Assembly: GCA_900554725.1 (NCBI GenBank)
Contig: USII01000073.1
Coordinates: 1-5,875, forward strand
Length of the DNA: 5,875 nt
DNA from: an uncultured Eubacteriales bacterium
GTDB lineage: Bacteria > Bacillota > Clostridia > Christensenellales > Christensenellaceae
Direction of reading: 5' to 3'
The position numbers and the translations under genes are program-made. Below the pieces are notes generated by a model. It was not told where the DNA came from, searched no databases, and saw only the letters and a list, made by a program, of their open reading frames with translations. Below, in pieces: positions 2,809 to 5,875 of the stretch (positions are counted from its first letter, which is position 1; each line of letters starts with the position of its first letter).

Positions 2809-3978
2809 ATGAAGAAAAGTAGGAAAGTCATCAGTACCCTGCTTGTGGGAATTTTTTTGGCAGCCGCGTTCCCGGCAGGGGTGCGGGCAGAGCAGTTTAA
2901 CTCCTCAGCAAAAGCATATGCACTTATCGAAGCAAATACGGGGCAGATTATCGCCGCAGAGAACGCAGAGGAAAAGCTCCATGCGGCAGGTTTGACGAAG
3001 CTGATGAGCTATCTGCTGTTCTATGAGGCTATTGGGGAAGGCAAGGTGAAGCCGGAGGACAGCGTGCGCGTATCCCAGGAAGCTGCCGCAAAGGGAGGCA
3101 CCAGCGTATTCCTGGATGCAGGGGCAAGCTATTCCTTTGAAACGCTGTTGAAGCCGGCCATCATGTGCAATGCCAACGATGCGGTGACTGCCCTTGCAGA
3201 GCATGTGGCGGGAACAGAGGAAGCGTTTGTCGCCCTGATGAACGAGCGTGCCAAGCAGCTTGGCCTTTCCTGCACATTTGCGGATTGCACTGGCATTTCC
3301 CCTGAGTCCCAGGTTTCGGCGCAGGACCTTGCAGTCATCGCCGCAGAGCTTTCCAAACACAGCGGTTTTTTTCAGTATAGCGCCATCTGGCTGGATACTT
3401 TTGTCCATGAGAGCGGCAGGCAGACTGAAATGAACAATGCAAATGTCCTTATTAAAAATGAACTGTACGATGGTATGTCTACCGGCTCTACGCCCAGCTC
3501 CGGATACAGCGCGGCAGTTTCGGCCCAAAGCGGCGGAGGGCGATTTATTGCCATTGTGGTGGGAGATAAGGATACGAGCAGCCGCTTTCGTCTGGCGGAG
3601 GATCTCATTGGATATGCCATTGCATCCTATGGTGTAAAACAAATTGCCCGGCAAGGGGGAAAAGTAAAGACGGTGCCCGTGGCAAATGGAAATCTCAAAG
3701 AAGTTGGCGTATATGCCAAGGAGGATTTGAGCATCCTGTATAAAAAGGGTGAAGAGAGCAGTATCTCCACTGAAGTACAGGTGCCCGATCTCGTTGCGCC
3801 GCTGGAAGAGGGGCAGGTAGTAGGCAAAATTGCCGTCACAACCCCACAGGGCGAGCTTTCCGTGGCTCTGGCAGTAGAACAGCAGGTGCAGGAACAATCC
3901 TTTAGCTCAGGGTTGCACCGCCTTTTAAAGAGCTACCTTGGGCTGATGAGCACCGGCGATGAGAATGCGCTTTCCTAA
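2809..3978 (+). CDS. PBP5-family (DacF/DacB-type) D-Ala-D-Ala carboxypeptidase homologue, probably catalytically inactive
   Basis: The product has 389 residues, normal for DacF-type proteins. A signal peptide runs from MKKSRK through a hydrophobic core to VRA, with likely cleavage after Ala27. The peptidase S11 domain spans about 30-270 and a PBP5 C-terminal beta domain about 275-360. A short amphipathic tail (about 366-382) could hold the protein at the membrane. Active family members remove the terminal D-Ala from peptidoglycan stem peptides using SxxK, SxN and KTG motifs. Here these positions read GLTK (Gly61-Lys64, in HAAGLTKLMS), NAN (121-123, in CNANDAV) and STG (224-226, in DGMSTGSTP). 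The nucleophilic Ser, the second-motif Ser and the third-motif Lys are all replaced, while flanking family sequence is intact. The frame is unbroken, so this looks like a maintained pseudoenzyme and not a decaying gene. It starts 39 bases after the SpoIIM-like gene and is probably co-transcribed with it. Fold assignment is secure; loss of activity is inferred from motifs. Confidence 0.93.
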   Translation: MKKSRKVISTLLVGIFLAAAFPAGVRAEQFNSSAKAYALIEANTGQIIAAENAEEKLHAAGLTKLMSYLLFYEAIGEGKVKPEDSVRVSQEAAAKGGTSVFLDAGASYSFETLLKPAIMCNANDAVTALAEHVAGTEEAFVALMNERAKQLGLSCTFADCTGISPESQVSAQDLAVIAAELSKHSGFFQYSAIWLDTFVHESGRQTEMNNANVLIKNELYDGMSTGSTPSSGYSAAVSAQSGGGRFIAIVVGDKDTSSRFRLAEDLIGYAIASYGVKQIARQGGKVKTVPVANGNLKEVGVYAKEDLSILYKKGEESSISTEVQVPDLVAPLEEGQVVGKIAVTTPQGELSVALAVEQQVQEQSFSSGLHRLLKSYLGLMSTGDENALS

Positions 3979-4061: not shown

Positions 4062-4095
4062 TTCTTCCGTTGTATGATATTGGAGGTAGTTATTG

Positions 4096-4332
4096 ATGGA
4101 TGTCGTATCCCTCGTTATCAAGATAGTGCTTTGCCTTTGTTCTTTGTTTCTTATCGTGGTGGTTCTGCTTCAGTCGGATGAAAACGGGGCAAACAGCATG
4201 CTCTCCGGAATGCAGGCGAGCCGTTCCAAGGCCAGGGGCATGAATGCAATGCTCGCGAAGTTGACCAAAATCGCGGCAGTTATCTTTATGATTTTGGCGG
4301 CCGCCTTGGTGCTGATTCAGAGGTTTTTCTAA
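4096..4332 (+). CDS. secG: SecG, preprotein translocase subunit
   Basis: SecG is the small auxiliary subunit of the SecYEG channel and assists SecA-driven protein export across the cytoplasmic membrane. The 78-residue product has the normal length and two-helix layout: a membrane helix at about 5-26, the characteristic VVLLQSDE motif and a Gly/Ser/Met-rich cytoplasmic loop (NGANSMLSGMQASRSKARG), then a second helix at about 57-76. ATG 4096 is chosen because GGAGGT (4082-4087) lies 8 bases upstream; an in-frame TTG immediately before it is not needed. The gene has its own extended -10 promoter, ends in a strong terminator, and is followed by rnr, a common Firmicute neighbour. Confidence 0.97.
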   Translation: MDVVSLVIKIVLCLCSLFLIVVVLLQSDENGANSMLSGMQASRSKARGMNAMLAKLTKIAAVIFMILAAALVLIQRFF

Positions 4333-5855: not shown

Positions 5856-5875
5856 CTGTCTCTTATACACATCTC
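5856..5875 (+). other. Nextera/Tn5 mosaic-end sequencing adapter (artefact)
   Basis: Bases 5856-5874 read CTGTCTCTTATACACATCT, the exact 19-bp Tn5 mosaic-end complement used in Nextera libraries. The following C at 5875 agrees with the i7-side adapter continuation and not with the i5-side one. It lies at the extreme end of the window and interrupts rnr. Read on the minus strand it yields the tell-tale peptide start MYKRQ. It is not genomic and any protein sequence reading through it is wrong after Leu479 or earlier. Confidence 0.97.

Follow-up and report, generated by a model that had tools for sequence, protein, structure and literature searches.

DacF is a low-molecular-weight penicillin-binding protein (PBP) and a D,D-carboxypeptidase of sporulation, and its gene appears as a sigma F/G gene in a core sporulation list (PMC3416734). 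In Escherichia coli PBP5, the exchange of Ser44 for glycine, PBP5(S44G), is reported to abolish both penicillin binding and carboxypeptidase activity; the variant is spread around the envelope rather than located at septa, fails in complementation, may have a greatly reduced affinity for substrate, and seems to make mutant cells more aberrant (PMC2909392). The inactive PBP4(S75C) of Staphylococcus aureus leaves the isolated tetrapeptide stem unbound (dissociation constant above 110 mM); bigger pieces of peptidoglycan, in contrast, are still bound around its catalytic pocket, and their dissociation constants range from hundreds of µM to a few mM (PMC6346638). Inactive variants of E. coli PBP4 still reach midcell, whereas a form without the non-catalytic domain 3 does not (PMC9166362). 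Within sporulation, the degenerate LytM domains of SpoIIQ and SpoIVFA are former peptidoglycan hydrolases kept with substituted active sites, and some sporulation proteins are, in the authors' words, former enzymes that could retain only substrate binding (PMC3533761). Here we describe a natural gene whose closest studied equivalent is the engineered PBP5(S44G). It lies at positions 2809–3978 of contig USII01000073.1 (assembly GCA_900554725.1), of which the whole 5,875-nucleotide stretch analysed is called the window; its product, termed pseudo-DacF, is a DacF-type protein of peptidase family S11 with a catalytic residue replaced in each of the three motifs SxxK, SxN and KTG, and it belongs to a clade that has lost the KTG lysine altogether. 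The MEROPS database flags non-peptidase homologues in many families; we know of no description of a catalytically dead clade of S11 penicillin-binding proteins in nature, and among the matches listed from the open-access literature on inactive or pseudo-PBPs, S11 pseudoenzymes and inactive DacF, which covers few subscription journals, none reports one. Rv2911, considered as a precedent for a dead S11 protein, was dropped, its motifs being intact (PMC4281109).

The gene and its landmarks are as follows.
2809–3978, + strand: pseudo-DacF, with a signal peptide (assigned by eye from the sequence), a degenerate S11 domain, a PBP5_C domain and a C-terminal helix
2989–3000, + strand: former SxxK motif, GLTK (Gly61; Lys64 retained)
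3169–3177, + strand: former SxN motif, NAN (Asn121; Asn123 retained)
3478–3486, + strand: former KTG motif, STG (Ser224; Thr225 and Gly226 retained)
3583–3585, + strand: codon of Arg259, which a hand count aligns with position 244 in the chain of E. coli PBP6; 38/38 clade members have Arg here
3901–3936, + strand: C-terminal helix (residues 365–376 in the model), a candidate membrane anchor by comparison with PBP5

The translation product has 389 residues and matches the Pfam profiles Peptidase_S11 with 169 bits (cut-off 27.6) and PBP5_C with 50.1 bits (cut-off 21.2), an architecture that it shares with DacF. The membrane anchoring of PBP5 is the model for the anchoring proposed here. Among solved structures, E. 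coli PBP5 and PBP6 and Pseudomonas aeruginosa PBP5 are among the best matches of pseudo-DacF in fold and sequence; unlike it, they are enzymes with intact SxxK, SxN and KTG motifs. The phmmer alignment with the PBP5/PBP6 structures 4k91 and 3it9 is ungapped at all three motifs, so that an alternative alignment with intact motifs is ruled out against the PDB relatives shown. An S11 profile match and a predicted PBP5-like two-domain fold are both present, but the residues expected of an active S11 D,D-carboxypeptidase are not: Gly61 (ggt, 2989–2991) replaces the SxxK serine, Asn121 (aat, 3169–3171) the SxN serine, and Ser224 (tct, 3478–3480) the KTG lysine. Translation and the ungapped alignment confirm these replacements, which a preliminary description of the window had read from the sequence, and the original Ser, Ser and Lys stand in 106/106 active relatives of the analysed set. 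All three replaced residues are identical in P0002, a 99%-identical protein cluster of 72 member sequences, and are therefore not the error of one contig; their recurrence in independent sequences rules out a single-contig or sequencing artefact (the preliminary description had already held three separate codon changes to be too many for one sequencing error), and none of the 38 clade members has the lysine. Since PBP5(S44G) is inactive, a DacF with Gly61 and without Lys224 should, by analogy, be catalytically dead; the identical Ser-to-Gly change thus speaks for the loss of catalysis and acylation predicted earlier (PMC2909392).

The protein search gave 414 relatives, and among the best 120 the nearest 37 (P0002–P0038) are all without the KTG lysine, which is present from P0039 to P0121. 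The first tree combined the S11 genes of 80 loci, L001 and the protein relatives (207 rows of at least 280 residues, 160 after removal of near-copies of at least 90% identity); with the motif columns left out, all 38 Lys-less rows fall into one group, with 98 in the Shimodaira–Hasegawa-like approximate likelihood-ratio test (SH-aLRT). In the second tree of 96 rows, i.e., 38 pseudo, 53 of the 106 active (every second) and 5 DacB-type, from which 13 columns around the motifs were removed, the Lys-less clade has a bootstrap of 99 and an SH-aLRT of 86, and it occurs in 100% of 200 bootstrap trees. The clade comprises 38 dereplicated members. Several independent origins of the lysine loss are not supported, as a single change suffices on the tree without motif columns.

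Within the clade (residue counts exclude P0113 and 15 paralogues, and n = 37 at position 61 because P0034 is a fragment without the first motif), position 224 holds Ala in 16 members, Ser in 6, Met in 5, Leu and Thr in 3 each, Gln in 2, and Arg, Ile and Cys in 1 each; position 61 holds Gly in 28, Ser in 7, and Asn and Thr in 1 each; and position 121 holds Ser in 30, Asn in 5 and Gly in 3. Compared with DacF, the clade is thus without the catalytic lysine in 38/38, the nucleophile serine in 30/37 and the SxN serine in 8/38. The claim that all three motifs are replaced holds for the window protein and fails clade-wide, where it is the missing KTG lysine that defines the group and most members retain the SxN serine. 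Parsimony on the 96-row tree needs one change at Lys224, seven at Ser61, four at Ser121 and two at Lys64, and position 224 has undergone at least 19 residue changes within the clade. All seven Ser61 members are without Lys224, so the lysine was most simply lost first; as reconstructed from the trees, it was lost once, and the nucleophile serine was replaced later and recurrently. One Ser61 member, L038 of genome G014, is placed inside a Gly group of the 160-row tree, possibly by a return to Ser or by separate retention. The most advanced members are L039:4962-6095 and P0033, in which the SxxK lysine has become Arg and the KTG glycine Ala (ATA), with the frame still open, and the member L043:3745-4938 shows an unusual combination, with the nucleophile replaced by Asn and the KTG lysine by Arg. 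Outside the clade, the distant S11 protein P0113 retains the serine, has NAN and KAG motifs and sits on a long branch; it is perhaps an independent degenerate lineage.

Selection on the frame is purifying, as the dN/dS check suggested at the outset indicates: between the window and its nearest relatives, G001 and G013, the ratio of nonsynonymous to synonymous substitution rates (dN/dS) is 0.081–0.101 by both NG86 and YN00, at a dS of 1.4–1.7, which is near saturation. The close pair, G001 versus G013, gives 0.075 for the S11 gene, from few changes, and the neighbour genes give 0.08–0.12 (spo0A) and 0.06–0.12 (secG) in the window pairs. Mean site entropy over residues 30–345 is 1.59 in the clade versus 1.76 in the 106 active rows, a larger and more diverse set. 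Many of the 41 positions that are at least 95% conserved in active rows stand at 38/38 in the clade (including Asn123, Asp124, Asn145, Asn212, Thr225 and Arg259), whereas others are swapped, with Thr67 replaced by Ser in 36/38, Ser98 by Thr in 32/38, and Thr155 and Thr211 by other residues. Judged from the sequences, this is a pattern of remodelling rather than of general decay. Because several residues of the former active site vary no more than they do in the enzymes and others are swapped clade-wide, the pocket is likely still in use.

The genes around pseudo-DacF bear on its identity.
6–1220, + strand: spoIVB, 5' end cut by the window (TIGR02860, 436.9 bits)
1331–2116, + strand: spo0A (TIGR02875, 208.7 bits)
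2164–2769, + strand: highly diverged SpoIIM-like membrane protein, assigned by profile comparison, directly upstream of pseudo-DacF with a gap of 39 base pairs
4093–4332, + strand: secG, the downstream neighbour (TIGR00810)

The sporulation neighbourhood recognized in the preliminary description is thereby borne out. In the window lineage the order is spo0A, the SpoIIM-like open reading frame, pseudo-DacF, secG and rnr; unlike the usual dacF locus, it is without deoB-punA, which precedes the gene in relatives of pseudo-DacF beside spoIVB-spo0A-spoIIM. This position is, we assume, also the place of dacF in Bacillus subtilis. Neighbourhoods were counted in 13 pseudo and 57 active rows, some of them at short loci, with L001 left out as a near-copy of the L036 neighbourhood. 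Within 6 kb upstream, punA and/or deoB occur in 8/13 pseudo rows, spoIVB or spo0A in 8/13, and any of these in 12/13, versus 27/57 active rows with any of the four. NCBIfam models identify deoB, punA and, below cut-off, spoIIM at the dead-form locus L053, spoIIM (above cut-off) and punA at L061, and deoB and punA at the active locus L045. In the trees, the pseudo clade adjoins the active orthologues found at this position and forms a group with them, to which the DacB-type paralogues do not belong. From neighbourhood and tree position together, the window gene is read as a DacF orthologue of an old clade.

The reading frame at 2164–2769 has no Pfam match up to an E-value of 1 and no NCBIfam match. 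Its four-row profile aligns by hhalign with the profile of proteins at the SpoIIM position (probability 94.1, E-value 1.3e-7, 116 columns), in agreement with the SpoIIM-like label given to it before, and its dN/dS versus G001/G013, 0.17–0.19, is roughly double the S11-gene value. A scaffold function for SpoIID and SpoIIP has been proposed for SpoIIM (PMC9600426). A terminator-like hairpin and T run follow spo0A at 2123–2165, and the start codon of the SpoIIM-like frame, a TTG, comes immediately behind the T run; a comparable hairpin, T run and TTG lie at about 6090–6126 of L036.

The clade profile was searched in a draw of 396 genomes from the order to which G001 belongs, probably Christensenellales, going by the source name of P0036; 318 genomes matched, and motifs were read at the 30 best-scoring loci, of which 13 are dead and 17 intact, and at the loci used for the paralogues. 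The dead form occurs in 13/396 genomes (466–577 bits); scores then drop to 435 bits, and 17/17 loci read directly below this gap have an intact KTG motif. Among 391 genomes drawn from the class, it occurs in two (G001 and G019), both of the same order, and a third match, G620, has an intact KTG. Five of the 13 dead-form genomes belong to the family of G001 and eight lie outside, so that the clade spans at least two families. Within the G001 family, SpoIVA, the product of a spore gene, is found in 5/18 genomes, exactly the five with the dead form, a coincidence that random placement would produce once in 8568, with the caveat that the genomes are related; the link to sporulation expected from the neighbourhood gains support from this co-occurrence. 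The other 13 genomes have only other S11 genes, as judged by frame length (471–631 residues) and, in the case of G010, by direct inspection of both its genes; G010 has SpoIIP and SpoIID, and neither SpoIVA nor the dead form. Nine genomes of 2.3–3.2 Mb in this family carry a single long S11 gene each, and the 13 without SpoIVA suggest that sporulation was lost once or more within the family.

Intact S11 paralogues, for which the preliminary description had proposed to look, accompany the dead gene in related genomes: S11 genes with intact motifs lie elsewhere in 13/13 dead-form genomes, and a DacB-type paralogue, by tree or motif, was found in 12/13 (none seen in G068; a contig end truncates the G043 copy ahead of SxxK). 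At four dead-form loci (L050, L053, L061 and L088), scpA/scpB and then a second S11 gene with intact motifs follow downstream; NCBIfam models near it identify scpA, GerW/ytfJ and an RluB-type gene in L061 and ytfJ in L088. We label this second gene DacB-type from the presumed gene order of B. subtilis; the DacB-type genes form a separate group of ten in the 160-row tree.

We consider it somewhat probable, at roughly 55%, that pseudo-DacF is a catalytically dead DacF-type S11 protein with a predicted PBP5 fold that acts in sporulation as a membrane-anchored, non-catalytic scaffold touching the forespore wall or its remodelling proteins. The evolutionary case for a dead clade within the known DacF/PBP5 kind is strong; that a dead protein under selection serves as a scaffold is our inference. 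The protein would be secreted, membrane-anchored and expressed during sporulation, and in the forespore envelope it would resemble SpoIIQ with its dead LytM domain, with SpoIIM-SpoIID-SpoIIP or DacB as candidate partners and the old pocket remodelled for a ligand or partner. Unlike pseudo-DacF, SpoIIQ and SpoIVFA belong to peptidase family M23, and a role is established for SpoIIQ. More tentatively, and with considerable doubt, a spore-former clade may have made DacF a pseudoenzyme in a fixed order (KTG lysine, then nucleophile serine) and re-used the remodelled pocket as a non-catalytic reader or organizer of sporulation peptidoglycan beside a diverged SpoIIM. If the scaffold reading is true, a spore-wall carboxypeptidase can lose its chemistry and still keep a non-enzymatic role, the clade is a natural series of intermediates (lysine lost, serine retained), and the label 'D-alanyl-D-alanine carboxypeptidase' on P0032 and P0036 is likely wrong for the clade.

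Several results weigh against the scaffold reading. Besides the near-saturated dS, more distant pairs give an S11-gene dN/dS of 0.20–0.29 or no estimate (spo0A 0.33), and the conserved former active-site residues, equally invariant in active rows, may serve folding only. A sigma F/sigma G consensus scan upstream of the 13 S11 genes and three upstream reading frames gave few matches, confounded by the ribosome-binding site. SpoIVA is not enriched at the level of the order (11/13 genomes with the dead form, G040 and G068 being without it, versus 334/396 overall); SpoIIP occurs in 12/13 dead-form genomes (not G014) and SpoIID above cut-off in 10/13 (not G012, G068 and G040), and eight active-form genomes have SpoIIP in seven and SpoIID above cut-off in five. 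The missing proteins are perhaps due to incomplete assemblies.

In a rather unlikely alternative, the pocket non-covalently holds uncleaved D-Ala-D-Ala stems on the glycan and so shields or marks the pentapeptides of sporulation peptidoglycan until DacB acts. The residues aligned to PBP6 ligand contacts are retained (Thr225, Ser227 and Arg259 in 38/38), and docking names T208 and R240 of Shigella sonnei PBP6, which align by hand count to Ser227 and Arg259, for ligand recognition (PMC9320039). Since PBP4(S75C) binds larger fragments, a dead PBP may bind the wall weakly; the same variant does not hold the isolated stem (PMC6346638). The work on PBP5(S44G), which is mislocalized and whose affinity may be much reduced, speaks against a pocket of this kind recognizing substrate (PMC2909392), and Lys224 is also lost. 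The peptidoglycan binding proposed earlier is weakened to that extent where it would go through the old pocket, and may persist as the weak binding of larger fragments. It is less likely still that pseudo-DacF is a dominant regulator that tunes cortex cross-linking, either by inhibiting the active carboxypeptidases (DacB or the DacA-like enzyme) or by competing with them for wall sites or partners. The intact paralogues and the seemingly worse cell shape with PBP5(S44G) would fit such a role (PMC2909392), but co-occurrence of paralogues is expected under any role, and active-form genomes likewise carry 2–4 S11 genes.

Residual or new chemistry, with Lys64 and another side chain (Ser67 or Ser227) as a different catalytic site, is very unlikely: Lys64 is retained in 35/37 members, mostly without its serine partner, and Ser67 and Ser227 stand in 36/38 and 38/38, but Lys64 is Arg in the other two, P0033 and L039, which have also lost the KTG glycine. 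We give hardly any credence to neutral erosion, by which a dacF made redundant by dacB would be decaying. The stepwise loss of three motifs and the greater root-to-tip distance in the clade (3.71 versus 3.21), itself a further point against a scaffold under selection, would suit it; yet the frames are open and full-length in 13 genomes, dN/dS is low between near relatives, entropy is not above that of the active rows, and the losses belong to a single old clade in at least two families. Erosion of the gene in relatives, a possibility raised earlier, is disfavoured by these open frames.

Downstream of the S11 gene, secG/rnr is found in 4/13 pseudo versus 0/57 active rows. The last 20 bases of the window (5856–5875, ctgtctcttatacacatctc) resemble what we take to be the Nextera transposon adapter, so the 3' end, and with it the final residues read in the RNase R frame, is probably artefactual. 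In L037 (3943-5873) and L038 (8321-10185), genes for Core-2/I-branching-type glycosyltransferases lie between the dead S11 gene and secG; L038 has two of them with near-identical N-termini, and L037 has a carbon-nitrogen hydrolase gene on the opposite strand.
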